Shown: positions 5,701 to 62,900 of the stretch, piece after piece | How the letters are laid out: each line of letters opens with the position of its first letter | Position numbering within the stretch: the stretch's first letter is position 1 | Assembly: GCA_034401795.1 (NCBI GenBank) | Contig: CM067372.1 | Coordinates: forward strand, 21,076,598-21,140,597 | Length of the DNA: 64,000 nt | DNA from: Chaetoderma sp. LZ-2023a | Taxonomy: Eukaryota > Mollusca > Caudofoveata > Chaetodermatida > Chaetodermatidae | Reading direction: 5' to 3' | Made by a program: the position numbers and the translations under genes | Notes under the pieces: model-generated | Told to the model about the DNA's origin: nothing | Database searches by the model: none | Seen by the model: the letters and a program-made list of their open reading frames with translations, nothing else

Positions 5701-8566
5701 CTAATACTAATACTAATGCTAACACTAATACTAACACTAACACTAATACTGATACTGATACTAATACTAATACTAATGCTAACACTAGCACTAACCCTAA
5801 CACTAACACTAACCCTAACACTAACACTAACACTAACACTAATACTAATACTAATACTAACACTAATACTAATACTAATGCTAACACTAATGCTAATGCT
5901 AACACTAACACTAACACTAACACTAACCCTAACACTAACACTAATACCAATACTAACACTAATACTAATACTAATACTAATACTAATGCTAACACTAACA
6001 CTAACACTAATACTAACACTAACCCTAACACTAACACTAACACTAATACTAATACTAATACTAACACTAATACTAATACTAATGCTAACACTAATACTAA
6101 TACTAATACTAATACTAATGCTAACACTAATACTAATGCTAACACTAACACTAACACTAACACTAACCCTAACACTAACACTAATACTAATACTAACACT
6201 AATACTAATACTAATACTAATGCTAACACTAACACTAACACTAACACTAACACTAACCCTAACACTAACACTAACACTAATACTAACACTAATACTAATA
6301 CTAATGCTAACACTAACACTAATACTAACACAAACACTAACACTAACCCTAACACTAACACTAACACTAATACTAACACTAACACTAACACTAACACTAA
6401 CACTAACACTAACACTAACACTAACACTAATACTAACACTAATACTAATACTAATGCTAACACTAACACTAAAACTAATACTAACACTAACACTAATACT
6501 AATACTAACACTAACACTAACACTAACACTAATACTAATACTAACACTAATACTAATACTAATGCTAACACTAACATTAACACTAACACTAACACTAACA
6601 CTAATACTAATACTAACACTAACCCTAACACTAACACTAACACTAACACTAATACTAATACTAACACTAACACTAATACTAATACTAATACTAATACTAA
6701 TGCTAACACTAACACTAACACTAACACTAACACTAACGCTAACACTAACACTAATACTAATACTAATACTAACACTAATACTAATACTAATGCTAACACT
6801 AATACTAATACTAATACTAACGCTAACACTAACACTAACACTAACACTAACACTAACACTAACCCTAACACTAACACTAACACTAATACTAATACTAACA
6901 CTAATACTAATACTAATACTAATGCTAACACTAACACTAACACTAACACTAACACTAACCCTAACACTAACACTAACACTAATACTAATACTAATACTAA
7001 CACTAATACTAATACTAATGCTAACACTAACACTAACACTAAAACTAATACTAATACTAACACTAATACTAATACTAACACTAACACTAATGCTAACACT
7101 AACACTAACACTAACACTAACACTAACACTAACACTAACACTAACACTATCACTAACACTAACACTAATACTAATAATAACACTAATACTAATACTAATT
7201 CTGATACTAATATTAATACTAACACTAACACTAATACTAACACTGATACTAATATTAATACTAACACTAACACTAATACTAATACTAACACTAACACTAA
7301 CACTAACACTAACACTAACACTAACACTAATACTAACACTAACACTAACACTAACACTAACACTAACACTAATACTAACACTAACACTAACACTGAATCA
7401 CTAATACTAACACTAACACTAACACTAACACTAACACTAATACTAATACTAATACTAATACTAACACTAATACTAATACTAATACTAATACTAACACTAA
7501 TACTAACACTAATACCAATGCTAACACTAACACTAACACTAATACTAATACTAATTATGATATTAATACTAAAACTAATATTAATACTAATACTAACACT
7601 AACACTGATACTAATATTAATACTAAGACTAACACTAATACTAATACTAACACTAACACTAACACTAACACTAACACTAATACTAATACTAACACTGATA
7701 ATAATATTAATACTAACACTAACACTAACACTAATACTAACACTGATACTAATATTAATACTAACACTAACACTAACACTAACACTAACACTAATACTAA
7801 CACTAACACTAACACTAACACTAACACTAACACTAACACTAATACTAATACTAATACTAACACTAATACTAATACTAATACTAATACTAACACTAATACT
7901 AACACTAATACTAATGCTAACACTAACACTAACACTAATACTAACACCAACACTAACACTAACACTAACACTAACACTAATACTAATGCTAACACTAACA
8001 CTAACACTAATACTAACACTAACACTAACACTAACACTAGCACTAACACTAACACTAACACTAACACTAATACTAATACTAACACTGATACTATTATTAA
8101 TACTAACACTAATACTAATACTAACACTAATACTAACACTAATACTAATACTAACACTAATACTAACACTAATACTAACACTAATACTAATGCTAACACT
8201 AACACTAACACTAACACTAACACTAACACTAACACTAACACTAATACTAATACTAACACTAACACTGATACTAATATTAATACTAACACTAATACTAATA
8301 CTAATTCTAATATTAATACTAATACTAACACTAACACTAACACTAACACTAATACTAACACTAACACTAATACTAACACTAATACTAACACTAATACTAA
8401 CACCAACGCTAACACTAATACTAACACCAACGCTAACACTAATACTACTACTCACGCTAACACTAACACTAACACTAACACTAACACTAACACTAACCCT
8501 AACTCAAACACTAGTGCTAACACAAATACTAATACTAACAATAATACTAACACTAATACTAACACC
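2781..8566 (-). repeat. Telomere-variant hexamer array (TTAGTG/TTAGTA/TTAGGG)
   Basis: About 5.8 kb (roughly 960 units) of CTAACA and CTAATA on the plus strand, which is TTAGTG and TTAGTA on the minus strand, with scattered TTAGGG (plus-strand CCCTAA), TTAGCA and TATCAG variants. Period six is kept almost throughout. Long open frames on both strands are Leu-Thr/Ile-Thr or Leu-Val/Ser-Val dipeptide strings, as expected for a hexamer without stops, and are not genes. TTAGGG is the usual animal telomere repeat, so this is best read as an interstitial or subtelomeric degenerate array whose G-rich strand points toward lower coordinates. Confidence 0.9.
3660..7404. repeat. About 2 kb internal duplication within the hexamer array
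   Basis: Rare variant landmarks recur in the same order. AATTCTAACAC is at 3685 and 5625 (offset 1940). CTGAATCACT is at about 5327 and 7393 (offset 2066). The AATTATGATATT motif is at about 5469 and 7553 (offset 2084). The order of P, M and A codons in the artefact frames also repeats. This shows block duplication of about 2 kb with small length changes, on top of the 6-bp period. A partial third block follows from 7555. Confidence 0.8.
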
Positions 8567-18700: not shown

Positions 18701-21700
18701 GTGAACAAATTACAAGATGCTACTGCATTCTCTATGCGCCCTCACGATAATATCTCACGCATATAGTGGACAATATACAAGTGGCTACTGCATTCTCTAT
18801 GCGCCCTCACGATGGTATCTCAGGCTTGCAGTGAACAATATACAAGTGGCTACTGCATTCTCTATGCGCCCTCACGATGGTATCCCAGGCATATAGAGAA
18901 CAATATACAAGTGGCTACTGCATTCTCTATGCACCCTCACGATGGTATCTCAGGCTTACAGTGAACAATATACAAGTGGCTACTGCATTCTCTATGCGCC
19001 CTCACGATGGTATCTCACGAATATAGAGAACAATATACAAGTGTCCACTGCATTCTCTATGCGCCCTCATGGTGGTATCTCAGGCTTACAGTGAACAATA
19101 TTCAATTGGCTACTACATGCCCTATGCTTCCTCACGATGGTATCTCAAGTATATAGACAACAATATACAAGTGGCTACTGCATTCTCTATGCGCCCTCAT
19201 GATGGTATCCCAGGCATATAGAGAACAATATACAAGTGGCTACTGCATTCTCTATGCGCCCTCACGATGGTATCTCACGCATATAGGTAACAATATATAA
19301 GTGACTACTGCATTCTCTATTCGCCCTCACGATGGTATCTCACGCATATAGTGAACAATTTACAAGTGGCTACTGTATTCTCTATGCGCCCTCACGATGT
19401 TATCTCAGGTATATATAGACCAATATACAAGGGGCTACTGCATTTTCTATGCGCCCTCACGATGGTATCTCAGACATATAGAGAACAATATACAAGTGGC
19501 TATTGCATTCTCTATGCGCCCTGACGATGGTATCTCAGGCATATGGAGAACAATATACAAGTTGCTATTGCATTCTCTATGCGCACTCACGATGGTATCT
19601 CATGCTTACAGTGAACAATATACAAGTGGCAACTGCATTCTCTATGCGCCCTCACGATGGTATCTCAGTCTTACATTGAACAATATACAAGTAGCTACTG
19701 CATTCTCTATGCGCCCTCACGATGATAACTCAGCTTTACAGTGAACACTATTCAAGTGGCTACTACCTGCTCTATGCACCCGCACGATGGTATCTCAGGC
19801 ATATAGAGAACAATATACAAGTGGCTATTGCATTCTTTATGCGCCCTCACGATGGTATCTCAGGCATATAGAGAACAATATACAAGTTGCTACTGCATTC
19901 TCTATGCGCCCTCACGATGGTATCTCAGGCATATAGAGAATAATATACAAGTGGCTACTGCATGCTCTATGCACCCTCACGATGGCATCTCAGGTATAGA
20001 GAGAACAATATACAAGTTGCTACTGTATTCTCTATGCGCCATGACAATGGTACCTCAGGCATATAGAGAACAATATACAAGTGGCTATTTCATTCTCTAT
20101 GCGCCCTCACGATGTTATCTCGGGCATATAGTGAACAATATACACGTGGCTACTGCATTCTATATGTGCCCACATGATGATATCTCAGGCTTACAGTGAA
20201 CAATATACTAGTGGCTACTGCATTCTCTATGCACCCTCACGATGGTATCTCAGGCATATAGTGAACAATATACAAGTGGCTAGTACTACAGTCTTTATGT
20301 GCCCTCACGATGGGTTCTCGGGCATATAGTGAACAATATACAAGTAGCTACTGCATTCTCTATGCACCCTCACGATGGTATCTCGGGCATATAGTGAACA
20401 ATATACAAGTGGCTAGTACTACATTCTCTATGTGCCTCACGATGGTATCTCGGGCATATGGTGAACAATATACAAGTGGCTACTGCATTCTCGATGCACC
20501 CTCACGATGGTATCACAGGCATATAGTGAACAATATACAAGTGGCTACTGCATTCTCTATGCGCCCTCATGATGGTATCTTAGGCATATAAAGAACAATA
20601 TGCAAGTGGCTACTGAATTCTCTATGCACCCTCACGATGGTATCTCAGGCATACAGTGAACAATATACAAGTGGCTACTACATGCTCTATGCGCCCTAAC
20701 GATGATTTTTAGGCTTACAGTGAACAATATACAAGTGGCTACTACATGCTCTATGCGGCCTCATGATGGTATCTCATGCATATAGAGAACAATATACAAG
20801 TGTCTACTGCATTCTATATGCGCCCTCATGGTGGTATCCCAGGCATATAGAGAACAATATACAAGTGGCTACTGCATTCTCTATGCGCCCTCACGATGGT
20901 ATCTCACGCATATAGGCAACAATATATAAGTGACTACTGCATTCTGTATTCGCCCTCACGATGGTATCTCACGCATATAGTGAACAATTTACAAGTGGCT
21001 ACTGTATTCTCTATGCGCCCTCACGTTGTTATCTCAGGTATATAGAGACAAATATACAAGGGGCTACTGCATTTTCTATGCGCCCTCACGATGGTATCTC
21101 TGGCATATGGAGAACAATATACAAGTGGCTACTGCATTCTCTATGCGCCCTCACGATGGTATCTCAGGCATATAGAGAACAATATACAAGTTGCTACTGC
21201 ATTCTCTATGCGCCCTCACGATGGTATCTCAGGCATATAGAGAATAATATACAAGTGGCTACTGCATGCTCTATGCACCCTCACGATGGCATCTCAGGTA
21301 TAGAGAGAACAATATACAAGTTGCTACTGTATTCTCTATGCGCCATGACAATGGTACCTCAGGCATATAGAGAACAATATACAAGTGGCTATTTCATTCT
21401 CTATGCGCCCTCACGATGTTATCTCGGGCATATAGTGAACAATATACACGTGGCTACTGCATTCTATATGTGCCCACATGATGATATCTCAGGCTTACAG
21501 TGAACAATATACTAGTGGCTACTGCATTCTCTATGCACCCTCACGATGGTATCTCAGGCATATAGTGAACAATATACAAGTGGCTAGTACTACAGTCTTT
21601 ATGTGCCCTCACGATGGGTTCTCGGGCATATAGTGAACAATATACAAGTAGCTACTGCATTCTCTATGCACCCTCACGATGGTATCTCGGGCATATAGTA

Positions 21701-24700
21701 AACAATATACAAGTGGCTAGTACTACATTCTCTATGCGCACTCACAATGGTATCTCAGGCTTATAGTGAACAATATACAAGTGGCTAGTACTCCATTCTC
21801 TATGTGCCCTCACGATGGTATCTCGGGCATATGGTGAACAATATACAAGTGGCTACTGCATTCTCGATGCACCCTCACGATGGTATCTCAGGCATATAGT
21901 GAACAATATACAAGTGGCTACTGCATTCTCTATGCGCCCTCATGATGGTATCTTAGGCATATACAGAACAATATGCAAGTGGCTACTGAATTCTCTATGC
22001 ACCCTCACGATGGTATCTCAGGCATACAGTGAACAATATACAAGTGGCTACTACATGCTCTATGCGCCCTAACGATGATTTTTAGGCTTACAGTGAACAA
22101 TATACAAGTGGCTACCACATGCTCTATGCGGCCTCATGATGGTATCTCATGCATATAGAGAACAATATACAAGTGTCTACTGCATTCTATATGCGCCCTC
22201 ATGGTGGTATCCCAGGCATATAGAGATCAATATACAAGTGGCTACTGCATTCTCTATGCGCCCTCACGATGGTATCTCACGCATATAGGCAACAATATAT
22301 AAGTGACTACTGCATTCTGTATTCGCCCTCACGATGGTATCTCACGCATATAGTGAACAATTTACAAGTGGCTACTGTATTCTCTATGCGCCCTCACGTT
22401 GTTATGTCAGGTATATAGAGACCAATATACAAGGGGCTACTGCATTTTCTATGCGCCCTCACGATGGTATCTCTGGCATATGGAGAACAATATACAAGTG
22501 GCTACTGCATTCTCTATGCGCCCTCACGATGGTATCCCAGGCTTACAGTGAACAATATACAAGTGGCTACTGCATTCTCTATGCGCCCTCACGATGGTAT
22601 CTCACGCATATAGTGAGCAATTTACAAGTGCCTACTGTATTCTCTATGCGCCCTCACGATGGTATCTCAGGTATATAGAGTACAATATACAAGTGGCTAC
22701 TGCATTTTCTATGCACCCTCACGATGGTATCTCAGGCATATAGAGAACAATATACAAGTGGCTACTGCATTCTCTATGCGCCCTCACGATGGTATCTCAC
22801 GCTTACAGTGAACAAAATACAAGATGCTACTGCATTCTCTATGCGCCCTCACGATAATATCTCACGCATATAGAGGACAATATACAAGTGGCTACTGCAT
22901 TCTCTATGCGCCCTCACGATGGTATCTCATGCGTATAGAGAACAATATACAAGTGGCTACTACATTCTCTATGCGCCCTCACGATGGTATCTTAGGCATA
23001 TAAAGAACAATATACAAGTGGCTACTGCATTCTCTATGCACCCTCACGATGGTATCTCAGGCATATAGTGAAAAATATACAAGTGGCTACTGCATTCTCT
23101 ATGCGCCCTCACGATGGTATCCCAGGTATAAAGAGAACAATATACAAGTGGCTACTGCGTGCTCTATGCGCCCTCACGATGGTATCTCGGGCTTGCAGTG
23201 AACAATATACAAGTGGCTACTGCATTCTCTATGCGCCCTCACGATGGTATCTCAGGCTTGCAGTGAACAATATACAAGTGGCTACAGCATTCTCTATGCG
23301 CCCTCACGATGGTATCTCAGGTATATAGAGAACAATATACAAGTGGTTTCTGCATTCTCTATGTCCCATAACGATGGTATCTCAGGCATATAGAGAACAA
23401 TATACAAGTGGCTACTGCATTCTCTATGCGCCCTCACGATGGTATTTCAGGCATATAGAGAACAATATACAAGTGGCTATTGCATGCTCTATGCGCCCTC
23501 ACGATGATTTTTAGTCTTACAGTGAACAATATACAATTGGCTACTACATGCTCCATGCGCCCTCATGATGATTTTTAGGCTTACAATGAACAATATACAA
23601 GTGGCTACTACATGCTCTATGTGGCCTCATGATGGTATCTCATGCATATAGAGAACAATATTCAAGTGGCTACTGCATTCTCTATGTGCCCTCATGGTGG
23701 TATCTCAGGCTTACAGTGAACAATATTCAAGTGGCTACTACGTGCTCTATGCACCCTCACGATGGTATTTCACGCATATAGTGAACAAGTTACAAGTGGC
23801 TACTGCATTCTCTATGCGCCCTCACGATGGTATCTCAGGCATACAGTGAACAATATACAAGTGGCTACTACGTGCTCTATGCACCCTCACGATGGTATCT
23901 CAGGTATATAGAGAACAATATACAAATGGCTTCTGCATTCTCTATGTCCCCTAACGATGGTATCTCAGGCATATAGAGAACAATATACAAGTGGCTACTG
24001 CATTCTCTATGCGCCCTCACGATGGTATTTCAGGCATATAGGGAACAATATACAAGTGGCTATTGCATTTTATATTCTCTGCGCCCTCACGATGATTTTT
24101 AGGCTTACAGTGAACGATATACAAGTGGCTACTACATGTTCTATGTGGCCTCATGATGGTATCTCATGCATATAGAGAACAATATACAAGTGGCTACTGC
24201 ATTCTCTATGCGCCCTCATGGTGGTATCTCAGGCTTACAGTGAACAATATTCAGGTGGCTACTACGTGCTCTATGCACCCTCACGATGGTATTTCACGCA
24301 TATAGTGAACAAGTTACAAGTAGCTACTGCATTCTTTATGCGCCCTCACGATTGTATCTCAGGCATACAGTGAACAATATACAAGTGGCTACTACATGCT
24401 CTATGCGCCCTCACGATGATTTTTAGGCTTACAATGAACAATATACAAGTGGCTACTACATGCTCTATATGGCCTCATGATGGTATCTCATGCATATAGA
24501 GAACAATATACAAGTGGCTACTGCATTCTCTATGCGCCCCCATGGTGGTATCTCAGGCTTACAGTGAACAATATTCAATTGGCTACTCCGTGCTCTATGC
24601 ACCCTCACGATGGTATCTCAGGTATATAGAGAACAATATACAAGTGGCTACTGCATTCTCTATGCGCCCTCATGATGGTATCCCAGGCATATAGAGAACA

Positions 24701-48522: not shown

Positions 48523-48779
48523 CAAATCTTGTGAGTTTGTTAAATAGGCCTTACGTGAACGATCAAAACGAAATGCACGATTAAGCAAGCAGATTTTCGT
48601 GAATTAGAATCAGTTTACCCCAAGATTATTACATATCTTTATTAAAAACATGGAAATGCATTGGTCACTTGGAAAAATATATCAGATGAACAAAATTATA
48701 TTGCACAGTATATCTTAATTAATCCATTGCATACAATTTTCTCTCTCACCAACGGAATGGATTAATCCTATCTGCCACT

Positions 48780-49230
48780 CAAGTATATGACGTCATAGTT
48801 AATTCCGCCACATGTACAGACAGAATACTCCATCATGAAGCTGGAATTGTCCGTCAGATGTAGGCTGACATCACCATCATAACTGACAGAATACTCCGTC
48901 ATGAAGCTGGAATTGTCCGTCAGATGTAGGCTGACATCACCATCATAACTGACAGAATACTCCGTCATGAAGCTGGAATTGTCCGTCTGATGTAGGCTGA
49001 CGTCAGCATCATAACTGACAGAATACTCCGTCATGAAGCTGGAATTGTCCGTCAGATGTAAGAATTGTATGCATTTGATGGGCTTACTATTTAAGAAACA
49101 CTCTTTTGAATATTTCGAAATCGAGTTGACTGGGCACTTTACGTAGTAACAGCACCCAGATAAACTAGTTTCAAAATAGCTTACCGGTATAGTTAACTTG
49201 AAATTGGCATTCTGAGAATTCAGGGTTAGT
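48780..49230. repeat. Foldback family, right arm (copy D), expanded by a 66-bp repeat
   Basis: TATGACGTCATAGTTAATTC at 48,786 matches the core motif of other copies. The arm resumes at 49,063 with AGAATTGTATGC, CTATTTAAGAAACAC and CAGCACCCAGATAAACTAG, as in copies A and B. Between them lies the 66-bp tandem repeat. Confidence 0.6.
48820..49062. repeat. 66-bp tandem repeat, four copies
   Basis: ACAGAATACTCC starts at 48,820, 48,886, 48,952 and 49,018, exactly 66 bp apart. 66 is a multiple of three, so a minus-strand frame shows a 22-residue repeating peptide; this is a by-product, not evidence for a gene. Confidence 0.95.
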
Positions 49231-49241
49231 AGTAGAGTCGG

Positions 49242-49494
49242 AATTAAAATGATACCACCTCCCTTAACTGGCAGCCGATCGGCGATCCGTGGCCCCCACC
49301 GCCCTCTTAATCCCTGGTGACTTAGGGTTGTTGAGACATGTGGTTGGTGTTTGCCTTTCATTCCGGTCCTGATCGGTACCACGAGAATGATGTGATTTAA
49401 TCCCGGTCGAAATTAAAATGATACCACCGACCTCAACTGGCAGCCGTTCGGCGATCCGTGGCCCCCAACGCCATACCAAATCCATGGGGCATAG
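49242..49494. repeat. About 84-bp direct repeat pair, offset 169 bp
   Basis: AATTAAAATGATACCACC at 49,242 and 49,411, followed by AACTGGCAGCCG and CGGCGATCCGTGGCCCCC in both. It lies just outside the virus-like gene block. Confidence 0.85.
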
Positions 49495-49645: not shown

Positions 49646-50057
49646 TCAGACAAACACGTAGTCTCTGCCAGAGTCGCATCGGTATGATGGGACCACCCAT
49701 AGTGTCTTCCATCTACCTTGCCAATGCTCACCTGGTAGGAGGCTAAAGTGCATAGCATTTGCACCAGGGCAGACTCTGGCATGTTCACATATTATGCAGA
49801 GAATCTGGTGCTGAGCAGGTGTCTCCAGCAAACAACCACGTCCTACCCTCTCCACACCATAGAAGTGGCAGACAGACTCGATCTCTTTACGTGGGTGAAA
49901 GCGGTCATAAATGTTTCTCCGCAAGGGGTCGACCCAAGGCTTGTACTGGGGGGGGGGCATCCCGGAAGTGGGCCCACTTAGCATCCAATATCATGGCAGT
50001 CTCAGCACCCTGTGCCACTGCTGTAGACGCCAACACGAGCAGTATGATAAGAATCAT
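49646..50057 (-). pseudogene. Putative secreted cysteine-containing protein, frameshifted
   Basis: The gene starts at 50,057 with a classic signal peptide (MILIILLVLASTAVAQG, likely cut after AQG). The frame breaks at a run of ten G at 49,948-49,957. It continues in another frame from there to a stop at 49,646, giving about 130 residues in all, with a CIICEHARVC cysteine cluster near the middle. Because the break is in a homopolymer, it could be a sequencing error. The start lies only 2 bp after the stop of the preceding minus-strand frame, a virus-like spacing. The first part of the gene is duplicated at 53,919-53,997, where it runs into purine-rich sequence. Function is unknown. Confidence 0.5.
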
Positions 50058-50109
50058 GGCTATACATGAAGAGTTAACCTGAACAGAGTGAACCCCTCGA
50101 GAAATATCT
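49979..50109. repeat. 131-bp direct repeat, left copy
   Basis: Matches 53,919-54,049 with a single difference seen (AACCCCTCG against AATCCCTCG). It is cut off by the assembly gap, so the true repeat may be longer. The two copies flank the Penelope-like insertion. Confidence 0.9.
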
Positions 50110-50609
50110 NNNNNNNNNNNNNNNNNNNNNNNNNNNNNNNNNNNNNNNNNNNNNNNNNNNNNNNNNNNNNNNNNNNNNNNNNNNNNNNNNNNNNNNNNNN
50201 NNNNNNNNNNNNNNNNNNNNNNNNNNNNNNNNNNNNNNNNNNNNNNNNNNNNNNNNNNNNNNNNNNNNNNNNNNNNNNNNNNNNNNNNNNNNNNNNNNNN
50301 NNNNNNNNNNNNNNNNNNNNNNNNNNNNNNNNNNNNNNNNNNNNNNNNNNNNNNNNNNNNNNNNNNNNNNNNNNNNNNNNNNNNNNNNNNNNNNNNNNNN
50401 NNNNNNNNNNNNNNNNNNNNNNNNNNNNNNNNNNNNNNNNNNNNNNNNNNNNNNNNNNNNNNNNNNNNNNNNNNNNNNNNNNNNNNNNNNNNNNNNNNNN
50501 NNNNNNNNNNNNNNNNNNNNNNNNNNNNNNNNNNNNNNNNNNNNNNNNNNNNNNNNNNNNNNNNNNNNNNNNNNNNNNNNNNNNNNNNNNNNNNNNNNNN
50601 NNNNNNNNN
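50110..50609. other. Assembly gap (500 N)
   Basis: Exactly 500 N. It hides the 3' part of the Penelope-like element and its junction with the virus-like block. Confidence 0.99.
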
Positions 50610-51140
50610 TTGGTAATGCTTTGGATTACTGAGTTGACGGTGCGCTTCACGGATGTAGTTGTTTTAAAGCATAATTACAGTAGCAGACCCTTTGTCAGCA
50701 GGTTTAATGACAATGCCATTGTTTTTACGCAATCCAGTTAAGGCTTTACGCTCCTCACATGACAAATTTTTATGATTTTTTGGAAATTCAACATTTTCAA
50801 CACGTTCTTTGATCATTTTTATACTATCAAAGATCGCTGGGTCGACTAATTTAGACTCTGGTGCCCAACCAGTTTTTTCGACAAATGGCAGAATATTATT
50901 TTTCGAGTTTCGAAAAAAGTCAGCTAATTTGACACGGTGGGCGAATTCAAGAACTTCTATTGATCCATTATCTAAAAGTGCATCTAGACCGATTTTCGGC
51001 ATCGGCGTTGGTACAAATGTTAGGCCACGACTGAGTAATAATTTCTCTGATTCAGATAAAGCAGAGCCAGTGAGATTAACAATATCACTACCCAGCCCGA
51101 TACCTGGGTGGTTAGTACCTTGACCCTCAGTTAGTTTAAA
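50610..51140 (-). pseudogene. Penelope-like ORF2, N-terminal fragment with premature stop
   Basis: Open in the -1 frame from the heptamer at 51,140. It shares GSDIVNLTGSAL, TFVPTPMPK, HRVKLADFFRNS and VIKPADKGSATV with the intact ORF2 at 57.5-59.8 kb. The first ATG in this frame is at 51,002, about 46 codons in, after conserved sequence. A TAA stop at 50,664-50,666 breaks the frame right after GSATVIML; homology continues past it in the same frame (NNYIREAHRQLSNP) to the gap. This copy therefore cannot make full-length RT. Confidence 0.85.
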
Positions 51141-52627
51141 TTAAGAAAAGTTAACCAGCTATAATACATGGTGTTAGCAGTCTTCTCGCTCCAGTGAATT
51201 TTATCTTGGACAACCTGAAATTCAGAAACGGGGAGGCTGGGGATGATGGAAACCTTCACTCTCATGTTTTCGACACAGGAGTTAATCGACTGGATGTTCC
51301 TCTTCTGGTGGGCTGAAAGACGCTGACAGTAGTTGAGCTTGGCGAAGTGGATCTTGGATTCGGGGAACTTGCACCTAAGTGTGCTAAAGAGAAGATGTGT
51401 ACGTTGGGCCGATTGACCCATCGATTCATCCTTGTCATTTATTCCAAAATTGACTATTATCTGCTCAGGTTTGTAGGATTCATTATATTTATTAACAATG
51501 GTCCTGGCATGTACTAATTTAGCGCCTGGAAAGCAGGCGATTTGCATATCAGGATGAGGTTCGACATTGATTCTACTCAAATTTGATGCACCAATGACCA
51601 AAATCTTCTTATTCAAAGTCGGGAGACGCCACTCATTTTTGTGCTCAACCTCATGTCGAAATTTCCAAAATATGTTCTGTTCTAAAGGTGTTCTAGGAGG
51701 TTGAGACGTCACGCTAGTTCTACAAGGGGTGGGTGAAAATCGAGGTTGTGGCAATTTGGTCGCAGGAGTTCTATTGGTGTTGATTATGCGTCTTGTTTTA
51801 CGGCCACCAGCTCTTTGTGGGAGCGGAGGAAATTCCTGTGGTGACAGAGGAGGTGGTGGAGGTAGTGTACCTGGCAGAGGAATTGTAGACGGATTCATAG
51901 GTGGCGGCAAATCTAGAAGAGGAGCTTGAGGTGTATCCGTAGGGCTGTTAGACTCATTGGATGTACTCGGGGCAGAGACTAGAGGGAAAACTGGAGATAA
52001 TTTGGTGTCTATTCGCTTCACTGGTGGGGGGCTATCAGTTGGTGACCTAGTTCGTTTCTTTACCTGGGATGGTGGTACAATTACACAATCATCGGAAGCT
52101 GGGACCCTTGGTGGGCTGGCAATGGGCATACTAGTTTGCTTATTTTTCTGGAAATGTGGGTCAAATGGTCTTATGAACTGATAAAAGGCCTCTATTGATT
52201 TGGCATGGAGTTTTTGGCCATAATTTGCTTTAGCCCATTTGATAGCCGTTGATTTCGCCTTACCTAAATTAAGGTTAGGCGCGGCCTGGGCTACTAAGAT
52301 TTCTGACATGACTGTTCCTAAGCTAAAATTATAATGGTCAATCATGGCTTTTATCAGGGAATTTGCCCAATCAAAATTAACCCTCCTGATGTCGTAAGCT
52401 ATTTCTACATTTGGTAAAGCGGGTTTCACGAAGCGGCATAGTTCATCTACCTTCCTGCTCAGGCCACTTGGCAAGGTGTTATCATTCAAATTACTGGTCA
52501 GCACACCAATGTGATGGAAGCATTGAATAATCATATAATAACACTTGACCAGTCGAGCCTGGGGGGGCGACGGAATGCTGTTCTCGTGCATGCCATTCCG
52601 TCGCTTACCCTTGCTCGTTCTGGCCAT
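51131..52627 (-). CDS. Penelope-like element ORF1 with SGNH (GDSL-type) hydrolase domain
   Basis: 498 residues from an ATG in excellent Kozak context (ACCATGG) at 52,627; 10 further in-frame residues upstream lack an ATG. Layout: an N-terminal unassigned part (1-165), a Pro/Ser/Thr-rich linker (about 165-325), and a C-terminal SGNH-like domain (about 340-490). All four SGNH blocks are present: VIGASNLS (Ser348), FPGAKL (Gly368), NFGIND (Asn397) and DKIHW (Asp475, His478). SGNH esterases occur in ORF1 proteins of some CR1/L2 LINEs and, as I recall, near Penelope-type Athena elements in bdelloid rotifers. The natural substrate is unknown; esterase activity or an adapted binding role are both possible. 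The frame is intact and ends at a TAA directly after a frameshift heptamer. The same C-terminus, diverged, precedes ORF2 in the second copy. Confidence 0.8.
   Translation of the reverse strand: MARTSKGKRRNGMHENSIPSPPQARLVKCYYMIIQCFHHIGVLTSNLNDNTLPSGLSRKVDELCRFVKPALPNVEIAYDIRRVNFDWANSLIKAMIDHYNFSLGTVMSEILVAQAAPNLNLGKAKSTAIKWAKANYGQKLHAKSIEAFYQFIRPFDPHFQKNKQTSMPIASPPRVPASDDCVIVPPSQVKKRTRSPTDSPPPVKRIDTKLSPVFPLVSAPSTSNESNSPTDTPQAPLLDLPPPMNPSTIPLPGTLPPPPPLSPQEFPPLPQRAGGRKTRRIINTNRTPATKLPQPRFSPTPCRTSVTSQPPRTPLEQNIFWKFRHEVEHKNEWRLPTLNKKILVIGASNLSRINVEPHPDMQIACFPGAKLVHARTIVNKYNESYKPEQIIVNFGINDKDESMGQSAQRTHLLFSTLRCKFPESKIHFAKLNYCQRLSAHQKRNIQSINSCVENMRVKVSIIPSLPVSEFQVVQDKIHWSEKTANTMYYSWLTFLNLN
51134..51140 (-). 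promoter_or_regulatory. Candidate -1 ribosomal frameshift site (TTTAAAC), copy 1
   Basis: In the ORF1 frame it reads T TTA AAC followed by TAA, a canonical X XXY YYZ heptamer. Slipping back one base gives TTT AAA CTA ACT GAG and opens ORF2. Seven bases later (TAACTGA) a GGGT pairs with ACCC after a short loop, and an ACCCAG/CTGGGT pairing lies just beyond. The stem is weak, so the stimulator is uncertain. Confidence 0.65.
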
Positions 52628-53918: not shown

Positions 53919-54049
53919 TAGCATCCAATATCATGGCAGTCTCAGCACCCTGTGCCACTGCTGTAGACGCCAACACGAGCAGTATGATAAGAATCATGGC
54001 TATACATGAAGAGTTAACCTGAACAGAGTGAATCCCTCGAGAAATATCT
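53919..54049. repeat. 131-bp direct repeat, right copy
   Basis: Right partner of 49,979-50,109. Beyond 54,049 the native sequence of the virus-like block continues without break, so this copy is joined to the rest of the minus-strand gene. Confidence 0.9.
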
Positions 54050-57472: not shown

Positions 57473-59788
57473 TTATTTGAGTTTCGCTTTTACCAAGATG
57501 TCGCGTAGATTAGGATTTTTCTTAAATGCAATTACTGGACGCTTGTTGAATGGTTGTTTTAAATTGTCCTGTAATTTGTGATACTCATCCTTTAGGATTT
57601 TCGCAATTTCAACATTTTTCCGATTGTATGTGAGAGTAAATGGGATAATCTCACGTTGATCCGAGAGGCATGGGTCCGAATTTATGCCCCTTGGCCATTG
57701 TGTTTCGAGTTCTTTAATCCAAAACGATTCTCTTAGTGATCTTTGTTTATCAGTTTCCTCTGTTGTGTCTGAAAGAGGTAGCTGTTCGATGGGCATAATT
57801 TCAAAGTCACGGGTGACTAAATGATCAGGAAGATTAAAATGTTCAGCCACATGTGTGTCTTCCTCTAGTCTAATATCTGAAAGGTGTCTGGTTGCTCGGC
57901 ATCTTAGTCGATTTTTTGTTTCGCCAACATACTGCTTTTGACACAATTTGCATGAAATTAAGTAAATGACATTTTCAGAATCGCAATCTAATTTCGACTG
58001 AATTTGAAATTTGCTTTTGTTTTGAAAGCTCGTGAATGTACTCTGGGAAGGAAGAAATTTATCCAATTTACACCTTTTCTTTTCACATTTCCGAGATTCT
58101 CCATCACCAATAATCGGACGATTATGACAAATTTTGGTAGGCCGAGAATTTCTGGCATTATCCGGAATGATTTCCAAATTATGCAAAGTTTCAGACTTTA
58201 TTTTGCGCAGGAACCGAGAAGAGTACCCTCTCGGTTTGAGGGCTTTGAATAAGGTCGTACATGATGATTCAAAGTTTTTTTTATCACTCGAATTTCGATG
58301 AAAACGGATTATTTGTGATTTTACAAGTCCCTTGAAAGTATGCGGTGGATGGAATGATTTGTTGTGCAGTAGTTGATGCGAGTCGGTTGGCTTAAAATAA
58401 ACTTTGTAGTCTAAGTAACCAGTTGTTTCATACTTTATACCTTTGTATAAAGTTACATCCAGGAAATCTACGGACATCTCATCAATTTGAGCTTTTAGTT
58501 TGATATTCGGATCATGATTATTCAGAATGGCCAGAAATTCGGTAAATGCTTCCTTACTATGTTGCCAGATCATGAAAATGTCATCGAGGTACCTGCGGTA
58601 GATGAGCGGCTGATTTGGACAGATTTCGAGTGCTTCCTTTTCCCACTCTGCCATGTAAAGGTTAGCGAAACCTGGGCTGAAACGCTTACCCATTGCGCAG
58701 CCACAAATTTGTTGGAAAATTTCACCAGCAAATTCAAAGTCATTGCCCTTCAGACTAAGCTCTAATAGAGCTATTACTTCTCTGTCGGGCCTGTTGGTGT
58801 GAGGATAGTCGGTAAATGCTCTACGAATTGAATTTAGACCCTTTTCGATGTCAATGTTTGTGTACATAGCATCGACGTCCATTGTAATTAAGAATGAATT
58901 TGGAGGGACCGAGATCTTAGAGACCTGGGCTAGGAAGTCTTCAGTGTTTTTCAGATAGCTAAAATGTCTATTTGCAATTGGCTGAAGATGGTAGTCGATA
59001 AATTCACTAATCCTATATGATTCCGAACCACAATCTGAAATGATGGGTCGCCCTGGTGGTGTCATTGGGTCGGTCCATAAGTCAACAGACTTATGGATTT
59101 TAGGAAGAAGATAAAATGTACGTGGTTTCGAATCATCTTTGGCACACAGGTATTTAAATTGCTTTTCAGTTATCTTCCTGTTATCAACCATTTTTTGGAG
59201 AATTTCGTTGAATTTGCTACAGTTATTTTGCCAAAGTGGTTCATTTAGTTTTCGGTAATGCTTCGGATTACTAAGCTGTCTATGCGCTTCTTTGATGTAG
59301 TTGTCTTTATCCATTACTACAGTAGCCGATCCTTTATCCGCAGGTTTGATGACAATTTCATTCTTTCTAGATAAATCTAATAGGGCCTGGCGTTGCTCAT
59401 AGGATAAATTTTGCTGATCGTTTGGAAATGTAGTATTTTCAATACTTTCAGAGTAAAGTTTTATACTTTCACCGATTGCTGGGTCAACACATTTTAAGTT
59501 TGGAGCCCAGCCGGTTCTTTCAATGAATGGTGGAATATTACTATTGGAGTTTCGAAAAAAATCTGCCAATTTTACTCGGTGACCAAATTCAGCAGTTTCA
59601 GTAAAGCCATTATCTAAATCTGCATCCAAACCTGTTTTAGGTGTTGGTGTTGGGACAAAGGTCAAGCCGAAATCAAGCAGTGACTGTTCTGCTTCACCTA
59701 ATGCGGAGCCGGTTAAGTTTACAATATTACTACCCAGTCCCAGTTCCAGTTCTGGGTGGATGCTACCCTGACCCTCATTCAATTTAAA
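57473..59788 (-). CDS. Penelope-like reverse transcriptase with GIY-YIG endonuclease (ORF2, intact)
   Basis: About 770 residues, open from the frameshift heptamer at 59,788 to a TAA at 57,473. The product would copy element RNA at nicked target DNA in the nucleus. RT motifs, numbered from the TTG at 59,782: KPADKGSATVVMDKD (147-160), FYLLPKIHK (223-231), PPGRPIIS (242-249), motif A MDVDAMYTNI with D302 and D304, GCAMGKRFSPGFANLYM (361-377), and catalytic YLDD (398-401). The C-terminus holds a GIY-YIG nuclease, VIYLISC-KLC-QKQYVGETKN (605-624), with the CxxC insertion typical of animal Penelope-like elements, then ERESFWIKEL-type sequence. The first ATG (residue 157) is inside the conserved RT region, so independent ATG initiation could not give a working protein. 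No stop or frameshift is seen, making this the best-preserved coding unit in the region, although its element is 5'-truncated. Confidence 0.92.
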   Translation of the reverse strand, partial: FKLNEGQGSIHPELELGLGSNIVNLTGSALGEAEQSLLDFGLTFVPTPTPKTGLDADLDNGFTETAEFGHRVKLADFFRNSNSNIPPFIERTGWAPNLKCVDPAIGESIKLYSESIENTTFPNDQQNLSYEQRQALLDLSRKNEIVIKPADKGSATVVMDKDNYIKEAHRQLSNPKHYRKLNEPLWQNNCSKFNEILQKMVDNRKITEKQFKYLCAKDDSKPRTFYLLPKIHKSVDLWTDPMTPPGRPIISDCGSESYRISEFIDYHLQPIANRHFSYLKNTEDFLAQVSKISVPPNSFLITMDVDAMYTNIDIEKGLNSIRRAFTDYPHTNRPDREVIALLELSLKGNDFEFAGEIFQQICGCAMGKRFSPGFANLYMAEWEKEALEICPNQPLIYRRYLDDIFMIWQHSKEAFTEFLAILNNHDPNIKLKAQIDEMSVDFLDVTLYKGIKYETTGYLDYKVYFKPTDSHQLLHNKSFHPPHTFKGLVKSQIIRFHRNSSDKKNFESSCTTLFKALKPRGYSSRFLRKIKSETLHNLEIIPDNARNSRPTKICHNRPIIGDGESRKCEKKRCKLDKFLPSQSTFTSFQNKSKFQIQSKLDCDSENVIYLISCKLCQKQYVGETKNRLRCRATRHLSDIRLEEDTHVAEHFNLPDHLVTRDFEIMPIEQLPLSDTTEETDKQRSLRESFWIKELETQWPRGINSDPCLSDQREIIPFTLTYNRKNVEIAKILKDEYHKLQDNLKQPFNKRPVIAFKKNPNLRDILVKAKLK

Positions 59789-59938
59789 TTAAGGAACTTG
59801 AGCCAATTACCATAGATAGCATTAGCAGTTCTCTCAGTCCAGTGAATATTGTCATGACACACACTGAACTCTGTGAGTGGCAGGCGTGGAATGACAATAA
59901 CGCCGGACTCAGAGGACTTGATCTTGCTAGACTGAATT
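59779..59938 (-). pseudogene. Penelope-like ORF1, C-terminal remnant (copy 2)
   Basis: About 52 codons matching the end of the 498-residue ORF1: the SGNH block-V region reads HDNIHWTERTAN against QDKIHWSEKTAN, and the last residues FLNLN are identical. It stops at TGA (59,779-59,781). Everything upstream is replaced by LINE sequence. Confidence 0.85.
59782..59788 (-). promoter_or_regulatory. Candidate -1 ribosomal frameshift site (TTTAAAT), copy 2
   Basis: T TTA AAT followed by TGA in the ORF1 frame. After a one-base backward slip the reading is TTT AAA TTG AAT GAG and continues through the whole RT-endonuclease. The 7-base spacer is TGAATGA, again followed by GGGT with ACCC downstream, as in copy 1. 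Confidence 0.65.
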
Positions 59939-62900
59939 GCTCAAAATCCCTTTACAAAATTTAGAATGCTCTTTGGAAAAGATATGTTTTAGTAGTGATT
60001 TAAATGAGTCAATTTTAGAGCAGTTTCTAATTTCAGGTGGAAGAGAGTTCCAGAATCGCGGACCGGCTCGAGAAAATGCACGATCTCCAGTAGTTAAGTT
60101 TGATTTTGGTATGGTACATAGTAATTGTGTGCTAGACCTAAGAGACCTTGGTGCTGCTCTTTGCTGGATTAAGGATTTTAAGTATGGTGGGGCCAGATCA
60201 TGTAGGCACTTGAACACCAACAAAGCCACCTTGTACCATATACGTTGTCTTATAGGCAACCAGTGCAGCTCCAATAGGACAGGTGTGATATGATCGAATC
60301 TTTTGGTGTGTGTAATCAGTCTAGCTGCTGTATTCTGCGCTCTCTGTAAACGATCTAATTGGCTAGATGGTATGCCTATTAACAGAGAGTTACAGTAGTC
60401 TAGGCGTGACGTGATGGTAGCATGTACGAGAGTTTTGACCGCATTTTCATCCAGGAAGCTGCAAATTTTTCTAATGTTCCGAATGTTCATGAATATGGAA
60501 CGGCAGACAGTGGTAACATGAGCTTCCATCGATAGGGAATTGTCAAATGTTACGCCTATGTTACGGGCACTTGCACCGAAAGATACGTCAGCCTCCCCAA
60601 TGTGCAAACTGGTGATGTCAACCGTATGTCTTAGGTGCGGTGAGGTTATTAACAGAATTTCAGTTTTCTTATCATTCAACTGCAATAAGTTGCTTAACAT
60701 CCATAGTTTAATGTCACGAACACAGTCTTCAACACGCTCACGAGCATTCACCTGGTCATTTGCACAGAATGCGAGATATAGCTGTGTATCGTCAGCGTGG
60801 AAATGGTAACTTATGCCATGAGACTGCAATAGCACTCCAAAGGGTGCTGTATAGATTGTAAAAAGGATCGGTCCCAGGACCGACCCCTGTGGCACACCTG
60901 ATGTTAATTCATGTTCCTCTGATTTGATATTATTCACAATGATTATTTGATGGCGTTTTCTGAGATATGATGAAAACCAAGCAAGAGAAGTGTCTAAAAT
61001 GCCCAGTTCTGCTAATCTAGATAACATGACATCGTGGTCTATAGTGTCAAATGCGGCAGACAAATCCAGGAGAACTAGTAAAACACACTTGCGTTCATCC
61101 ATGGAACATAAGACATCATTTTGTACGCGCAGTAGGGCTGTCTCAGTGCTGTGAAGTTCGCGGTATGCGCTTTGAAAAGGTTCCAGAAGATTATTTCTTA
61201 CTAAGTGATCATTGAGCTGCTGGGCGACAACTCGTTCTAATACTTTTGACAGGAAAGGTAAATTTGAAACAGGTCTGTAGTTCCCAAGCACATTTTGGTC
61301 TAGTGATGTCTTTTTTAGTAACGGAATCACGTTTGCAGTTTTGAACAGGTCAGGGACATTGCCACTTGTTAAGGACAAATTAATGATTTTGAGTATCGTA
61401 GGCAATAATTCATCAACACAACCCTTAACAATATTTGTTGGTATCGGATCTAGTGAACAGGATGCTCGAGACAATTTGCGAATTATTGTCGATACTTCTT
61501 CAGAGCAAGCCGGTTTAAATTCTGTCATGGTACATTTTAAGTTAAGGGCGGTGCGACAACTAATTAGCGGTGAGTAGTTTTGGTGATTTAAAATGCAGTC
61601 ACGAATTAAACCAATTTTCTCCGAAAAGAAGTTCGCAAACTTGTTTGCTAGCTCAGTTGGGTCAGTGTGTTGTGGGAGATTGCTCTTACTTTTGTCCATG
61701 TGAAGTAGGTCGCTGAAGATGCTGAACAGCTTTCCCTGGTTGGATACATGTTCAGATACTAACGTGGAGTAATACGATCGCTTTGCTGATAGTATCATAT
61801 CACTTACGAGACGAACTTGACTTGCATGTACTTGGCGATGGACCTGAAGTTTGGATTTATGGGCGACACGCTCATGTTTACGACAGAGCTGTTTTGCAAC
61901 TTTTATTTCACAGTTGTACCATGGTGATTTCTCTCGGACAATGATTACCTTTCGCTTCAACGGGGCATGTTTATCGAGGATAGATCGCATATCGTTATTG
62001 TACTGCTCAACAATCCGTGATACGTCATCAGATGGATTCATGCACACCTCAGAGGACTGAATGTCGGACTTTAACGATTGTGTAGGGAGCGAATGAAGAT
62101 TTCGATACGTTAATTCCTTTCTCGGTAGTGCTGGTTTCAGAAGCGATATATCAAAGGTAATGGCAGCGTGATCAGATGTAATAGCACCAAGATCTACATT
62201 CACGTTTCTAATCACTGATTCGGTTGTTCGAGTTATGATTAAATCCAGTAAGTGACCCTTTGTATGGGTTGGGTAAGTAACATGCTGTTCTAGGTTTAAT
62301 GTATCAAGGAGTGTTCCTAGAGCAGATACACTACTGTCCGATGCATTCTCGAAGTGCACATTAAAGTCACCCAATATTAACAAATTGCCACTACTTAGAG
62401 CATATCGGTCGAAAAGCAGAGACAGTTCGTGAAGGTACTCTGTCATATTACGTTTATGCTTTTTTAATGACGGCGGGCTGTAAATCACAACGATTCGCAG
62501 TAAGCTAGAGTTCTGCACAATGTCAAATTCGAAGTTCTCAAATGTGTGATAAGAAGGAGATTTTGATACAGAAATCGTAATTGTCTCTTTTAGTAGAATG
62601 GCTATGCCACCGCCACCCCTGGATGATCTAGGGACATGCTTGAAAGAGTATCCAGCCGGTGTGAGGTCGCCTATTGCTATGTCATCGGTATCAGCCTTAA
62701 GCCATTTGAAATAACATAATCTACGATGTTAATGGTTTTATTTCGCATTGATCTTGCATTGAGAAGACAGCCTTTACACATTGCCTGGTGGTCTGATGCT
62801 TTGGGACCAGGATATGTGGAATCAACTATTGCAGAAGTAGTTGGTATCTTAATAAGATTGTCAGTACATGCAGCGGATTTGGATTGACGCTTTTTTCTCT

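Follow-up and report, generated by a model that had tools for sequence, protein, structure and literature searches.

Frameshifting by -1 is known for the gag-pol genes of retroviruses and long terminal repeat (LTR) retrotransposons and for the coronavirus infectious bronchitis virus (IBV; U_UUA_AAC), the cassettes having a structured RNA 5-9 nt downstream of the slippery heptamer. Penelope-like elements (PLEs) are related by ancestry to the telomerase reverse transcriptases (RTs), and many of them carry a hammerhead ribozyme motif, which is not defining for every PLE. In the portions consulted of PMC6431247 and PMC3846280, canonical endonuclease-bearing PLEs are described as having a single open reading frame (ORF), and according to the former PLEs have either a single ORF with an endonuclease or two ORFs without it. 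Here we describe two PLEs in a 64,000-nt stretch of contig CM067372.1 from the mollusc Chaetoderma sp. LZ-2023a (hereafter the window; the element coordinates are on the minus strand), where an upstream ORF1 ends in a slippery heptamer, and the RT-endonuclease frame, ORF2, opens at this heptamer in the -1 frame. The sequences make it highly probable (approximately 0.9) that programmed -1 frameshifting yields a fusion of ORF1, RT and endonuclease (ORF1-RT-EN) in these PLEs.

The arrangement resembles both gag-pol and IBV in the heptamer rule and in the expected outcome, the RT as a minority fusion, and resembles gag-pol also in the position of the site at the end of a gag-like ORF. It differs from them in that the element is a PLE with a GIY-YIG endonuclease and ORF1 is an SGNH hydrolase, in that the heptamer abuts the stop codon (in the families of this genome), and in that a strong stimulatory structure is only a candidate. 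With Penelope of D. virilis and the Pen families of A. vaga these PLEs share an RT and a C-terminal GIY-YIG domain in one ORF, as well as tandem head-to-tail copies (here in the copy-1 family, F1, at 5.76-5.90 kb). Unlike canonical PLEs, they have the upstream ORF1, an ORF2 that in most families read lacks a start codon of its own, and no hammerhead ribozyme found by Rfam, there being no match in the window at the gathering score and, up to E = 1, only an irrelevant miRNA match in three loci (L031, L034 and the distant element L064 described below). An SGNH-type esterase is already known from the ORF1 proteins (ORF1p) of CR1, RTEX and PLEs, and the PLE ORF1 profile matches one of them, the zebrafish L2 ORF1p esterase (ZfL2-1; PDB 4c1b_A, 'ORF1-encoded protein'), at 2e-06. 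The esterase is listed for PLEs in the survey PMC3905857, hence PLEs were already known to carry an SGNH domain, but the part of the survey consulted does not state how the PLE ORF2 is expressed. Finally, the telomeric long interspersed element (LINE) TART-B1 likewise has its RT in a different frame after a gag-like ORF; its RT has a presumed start of its own 37 nt downstream (PMC5009743, consulted in part), whereas here there is none in most families read.

In both window PLEs a T_TTA_AAY heptamer in the ORF1 register adjoins the ORF1 stop, the join on the minus strand being AAT TTA AAC TAA in copy 1 and AAT TTA AAT TGA in copy 2. The features are as follows.

51131..52627, minus strand: ORF1 of copy 1, 498 aa, with the SGNH hydrolase domain near the C-terminus; ATG context ATCACCATGG
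51134..51140, minus strand: slippery heptamer T_TTA_AAC of copy 1
51131..51133, minus strand: ORF1 stop TAA of copy 1, adjoining the heptamer
51106..51126, minus strand: possible stimulatory hairpin of copy 1, GGGT 51126-51123 and ACCC 51109-51106, with an inner GGT/ACC stem
50664..51140, minus strand: ORF2 of copy 1, -1 frame from the heptamer TTT, 158 codons, then the assembly gap
59779..59926, minus strand: what a LINE insertion has left of the copy-2 ORF1, a C-terminal tail (...NIHWTERTANAIYGNWLKFLNLN*) whose upper limit is approximate
59782..59788, minus strand: slippery heptamer T_TTA_AAT of copy 2, then TGA (59779-59781)
57473..59788, minus strand: ORF2 of copy 2, 771 aa, RT with YLDD and C-terminal GIY-YIG, -1 frame from TTT

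ORF2 is open in the -1 frame only, starting at the heptamer TTT, and the -1-frame codon just 5' of TTT is a TAA stop in both copies. The first-pass annotation had claimed an X_XXY_YYZ heptamer and a stop at both ORF1 ends and a -1 slip leading into ORF2, and re-reading of 51134-51140 and 59782-59788 agrees with it on both points. Such sites are rare in the frame: in ORF1 of copy 1 (499 codons including the stop) the junction is the sole in-register X_XXY_YYZ, and three complete ORF1s (1643 codons) contain six, three of which are the junction sites. Copy 1 is incomplete: its ORF2 is interrupted after 158 codons, and positions 50110-50609 are an N gap in the assembly. In copy 2, ORF2 is open for 771 codons, but a LINE cuts ORF1, of which only the in-frame tail ...WLKFLNLN* remains.

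A search of the 2.44-Gb genome with the copy-1 junction DNA (40 matches scored of 1903 candidates, 98-100% identical) gave 30 fetched loci of F1, and all of them keep the heptamer and the adjacent stop; at this level of identity they show only that the junction is no private mutation. Protein queries (copy-2 ORF2, P0006, P0042 and P0019; 57-59 candidates scored of approximately 21,000-24,500 each, the counts being lower bounds) revealed at least seven PLE (sub)families in the genome: F1, F2a (including copy 2 of the window), F2b, F3, F4, F5 and F6. Outside F1, the junction is present in 25 of the 26 fetched stretches, always as T_TTA_AAY with an immediate stop (25/25), and the whole junction is absent from the remaining one, L062. 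The heptamer and stop read TTTAAAC TAA in F1, F2b, F3 and F6, TTTAAAC TAG in F4 and F5, and TTTAAAT TGA in F2a. Thus, TTTAAA is constant in these loci although the stop codon and many synonymous sites vary, the pairwise synonymous difference (pS), computed from one locus per family over at most 85 codons at the ORF2 N-terminus, ranging from 0.23 (F2a-F2b) to 0.74 (F1-F3). An apparent in-frame joining of ORF1 and ORF2 in two F3 loci (open frames of 995 and 971 aa) was considered and rejected, as their junctions proved normal.

The scan of bacterial and archaeal genome contigs yielded one relative only, L064 (LJHE01000041.1), from a single-cell Epulopiscium record. It is a eukaryotic-type PLE tandem with 38% identity over residues 19-703, and it presumably derives from the animal host or gut content. 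Its ORF1 (SGNH, 611 aa) ends with ...ISYLNFKAP*, T_TTA_AAC being followed by four codons and the stop, and its ORF2 reads ...LDLIFKLQSP... in the -1 frame; pS between the families of the mollusc and L064 reaches 0.87. Hence, an in-register X_XXY_YYZ at the join, with the second ORF in the -1 frame, is found in all eight tabulated elements (seven (sub)families and L064), and the heptamer noticed in two copies is kept by other family members and by this distant element. No relative was found in viral contigs scanned with the copy-2 ORF2 and with an alignment of 18 sequences, and the L064 ORF2 as a genome query returned F3-type frames only and no new family. In protein databases the L064 ORF1 is deposited as a bacterial hypothetical protein (P0127).

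Traces of the site are also seen at both protein termini. Among 5.8 billion proteins, the best 120 of 1852 ORF2 relatives were fetched, and the VNL block was located by script in 69 of them, while 51, nearly all with a later predicted start, were set aside. For 32 of these 69, which extend at least 16 residues upstream of the VNL block, a motif is present in 22 N-termini (FKL, 13; FKR, 1; KKL, 4; GKL, 2; FFL or FFC, 2), 13-26 residues before the block, compared with 337 of 6400 control windows (5.3%). By eye, the ORF2 residues differ before the motif and resemble each other after it. Four residues have a homopolymer codon, among them F (TTT), K (AAA) and G (GGG), and F-K, K-K, G-K and F-F fit U_UUA_AAY, A_AAA_AAY, G_GGA_AAY and U_UUU_UUY, respectively. 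Another 26 of the 69 ORF2s start no more than 4 residues from the VNL block, their first residue usually being M or V at the V/I position, which suggests GTG-type starts picked by gene callers where no upstream start was available.

At the other terminus, 20 of 21 distinct ORF1 relatives end with x-L-N or x-K-N, at most 4 residues from the C-terminus, and in all 20 the residue x can be encoded by NNT (where L follows) or NNA (where K follows). NNT with L-N can encode T_TTA_AAY, and NNA with K-N can encode A_AAA_AAY, paralleling the FKL and KKL forms of ORF2. One of these relatives, P0122, is by eye near F4. The longest contigs of P0141 (an x-K-N ORF1) and P0053 (an ORF2, N-terminally short and by eye like the KKL-type P0043) are equally long (4583), as are those of P0139 and P0104 (4744), which suggests ORF1-ORF2 linkage in both pairs.

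Downstream of the heptamer, the spacer to GGG is 7 nt in all seven (sub)families of the genome, extending what had been reported for the two window copies. The GGGY/RCCC stem pairs in 27 of 28 cells over the seven (sub)families, and, with the inner GGY stem, two of seven pairs change on both sides (UA to CG in F4 and UA to CG in F3), a number matched by 16 of 500 shuffles. RNAalifold picked this structure too on an earlier set of 10 sequences. The energy model favours a competing hairpin, ACCCAG/CTGGGT, in several families; by eye it is broken in F3. In L064 a GC-rich foldable stretch begins 6 nt downstream of the heptamer (z = -1.46 for 46 nt and -0.51 for 70 nt).

The slippage itself and its efficiency are inferred, whereas the heptamer, its register, its retention across families, the constraint on the codons that follow it and the fit of both protein termini are observed. 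Approximately 500 codons into ORF1, a ribosome would meet T_TTA_AAC just before the ORF1 stop. The majority of ribosomes would stop there and release the gag-like SGNH esterase ORF1p, while a minority would slip back by one base, both tRNAs re-pairing with UUU and AAA, and would continue into ORF2, producing the ORF1-RT-EN fusion at a set low ratio. The hairpin at the 7-nt spacing, or a pseudoknot including this hairpin, may stimulate the slip, and the ratio of ORF1p to the fusion may matter for assembly of the ribonucleoprotein.

Several observations weigh against this mechanism or some part of it. As for the RNA structure, the percentage of paired positions was equalled in 91 of 500 shuffles, sliding by -3 yielded an equal covariation score, and the first count found equally many two-sided pairs in 209 of 500 shuffles. 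The folding energy does not lie clearly below that of dinucleotide shuffles, with z from -1.02 to +1.61 (six (sub)families of the genome, F6 left out), and a shared H-type pseudoknot sought in eight junctions gave candidates in each, none of them visibly homologous. The GGGT/ACCC stem noted by the first-pass annotation is conserved, with two compensatory pairs if the inner stem is counted, and no common pseudoknot was found. At the protein level, the set of ORF2 motifs was picked after inspection of the sequences, 10 of the 32 ORF2s have no motif (six of these by eye starting too far downstream), and the A_AAA_AAY, G_GGA_AAY and U_UUU_UUY types are known from protein sequence alone. Among the ORF1 relatives, P0123 lacks the x-L-N or x-K-N pattern, P0127 is no independent case, being L064's own ORF1, and the fit of the x residue is moderate evidence, since an NNT and an NNA codon are available to 15 and 12 of the 20 amino acids, respectively. 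In several database ORF2s (e.g. P0060, P0038 and P0019) a Met lies 1-21 residues ahead of the motif, hence separate initiation is possible in those.

There are several other ways in which ORF2 could be expressed. Readthrough of the ORF1 stop codon is ruled out, as the frame past the stop is not that of ORF2. If ORF2 were made separately, by termination-reinitiation or internal initiation at an ATG or near-cognate codon past the ORF1 stop, F-K-L would be a mere remnant. Besides the Met residues just mentioned, this is favoured by an ORF2 ATG at codon 14 of F2b, approximately 30 nt past the stop, which weakens the no-ATG argument for this subfamily, and by the TART-B1 start codon 37 nt past the gag stop. 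Vice versa, no ATG lies close to the ORF2 beginning in most families read: the first one is codon 47 in F1 (in 19 of 20 junctions, the remaining one being readable for 15 codons only), codon 61 in F4, codon 159 in the window copy of F2a and codon 371 in L064 (370 codons past TTT), and the parts read of F3 (153 codons), F5 (118) and F6 (90) contain none. The 46 codons said by the first-pass annotation to precede the ATG of copy 1 were counted again, whereas its codon 157 for copy 2 should be 159; its view that no ATG is near holds for most families and fails for F2b. Upstream, no ATG is present 5' of TTT in the open ORF2 frame of any of the eight tabulated elements; the -1-frame stop adjoins TTT in six of the seven (sub)families of the genome and is three codons upstream in F4, and L064 has 21 open codons before TTT. 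When F1 is compared with copy 2 of the window, constraint on the 46 codons that precede the F1 ATG (pN 0.165, pS 0.689, dN/dS 0.10; bootstrap pN/pS 0.13-0.43) is similar to that on the remaining 723 ORF2 codons (dN/dS 0.107). These codons, whose residues were noted earlier as conserved, are under purifying selection and are evidently translated. Separate expression would also leave the conservation of the heptamer unexplained, and we consider it improbable.

Two further alternatives concern the genomic join itself. A spliced mRNA might fuse ORF1 to ORF2, the genomic join not being the translated one; PLEs are said to retain introns through retrotransposition, but here the two frames abut with zero interval, the pre-ATG codons are constrained as protein from TTT on, and the heptamer is present in 8/8 tabulated elements, so splicing is very unlikely. 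The heptamer could also play no part in decoding and persist because the protein is conserved or the copies share a recent origin. The scored F1 copies, being 98-100% identical in DNA, prove nothing by themselves, and F-K-L and L-N might have been retained for protein reasons. However, there are many synonymous differences (pS up to 0.74 in the genome and up to 0.87 to L064), F-K-L is translated only given a frame shift at that very site, and F, K and G replace one another at one position, which is no conservative exchange of amino acids, yet keeps XXX. We therefore give this explanation little credence.

Judging by their RT and GIY-YIG domains and invariant residues, the elements are endonuclease-bearing PLEs. 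ORF2 has a PLE-type RT and a C-terminal GIY-YIG domain, and many of the 120 listed relatives carry PF00078 and PF01541; the GIY-YIG match of the copy-2 ORF2 (E = 0.00036, 21.2 bits) is just below the Pfam cut-off of 22.6. The residues D402 and D403 (YLDD) and the nuclease residues Y609, Y620, G622, R631, H635 and E687 are invariant in 18 aligned sequences. ORF1 of copy 1 has no Pfam match at 0.001; by the profile match given above and the residues S302, G322, N354 and H437, invariant over 11 rows (two partial), ORF1 carries an SGNH hydrolase. In two ORF1 relatives, P0126 and P0137, the SGNH domain is accompanied by a further domain, PF08719.

Many PLE copies in the genome are open and near-identical; they belong to at least seven (sub)families and frequently form head-to-tail arrays, which suggests recent activity. 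Fifteen F1 stretches (approximately 10 kb each) hold 20 junctions; at 10 of these ORF2 is 775 codons long, and at the other 10 it is broken or extends past the end of its stretch. The head-to-tail copies are spaced by 5763, 5826 and 5898 nt in F1, by approximately 8.0-8.1 kb in the copy-2 family and by 5441 nt in L064. Direct repeats of 131 nt flank one element of the window (49979-50109 and 53919-54049), and direct repeats of approximately 190 nt flank one in L031 (about 1296-1480 and 5882-6078). Of the eight loci examined for target duplications, L031 has its repeat of approximately 190 nt, L037 has a 1.2-kb tandem-type repeat, and six have none. The repeats of 131 and approximately 190 nt are longer than the target duplications known for PLEs, and they might represent either unusually long duplications of the target or an effect of the assembly. 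The insertion in the copy-2 ORF1 contains a non-LTR retrotransposon frame (59927-62728, minus strand; 933 aa, endonuclease/exonuclease and RVT_1). Elsewhere in the window, a frame at 48768-49412 (minus strand) repeatedly encodes one peptide unit (TDNSSFMTEYSVSYD..), a sign of a short tandem repeat in the DNA.

The principle of frameshifting is known, and its use in PLEs is apparently new within the literature searched: in agreement with the first-pass annotation, which knew of none, no description of frameshift expression of PLEs was found there, Repbase and most PLE papers in subscription journals being outside the scope. In the parts consulted of PMC3846280, PMC5408684, PMC4465651 and PMC6431247, 'frameshift' refers to decayed copies or LTR gag-pol, and 'Penelope' is not mentioned in the consulted part of PMC5009743.

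Beyond this genome, it seems fairly likely that the RT-endonuclease is made solely as a -1 fusion behind the SGNH ORF1p across a large, old clade of ORF1-bearing PLEs, where the slippery site would have switched among U_UUA_AAY, A_AAA_AAY, G_GGA_AAY and perhaps U_UUU_UUY, with its place and register kept, and that gag-pol-style ratio control is ancestral in this telomerase-related class of retroelements. If so, the actual product would be the ORF1-RT-EN fusion, and many annotated ORF2s would be wrong at the N-terminus; such PLEs can be marked in annotation by the ORF1 end x-L-N or x-K-N and by F-K-L, K-K-L or G-K-L upstream of the VNL block in ORF2. The slippery site would also be an easily tested entry point for assays with a reconstituted PLE, and a set ratio of ORF1p to RT would belong to the PLE life cycle, as it does in retroviruses.
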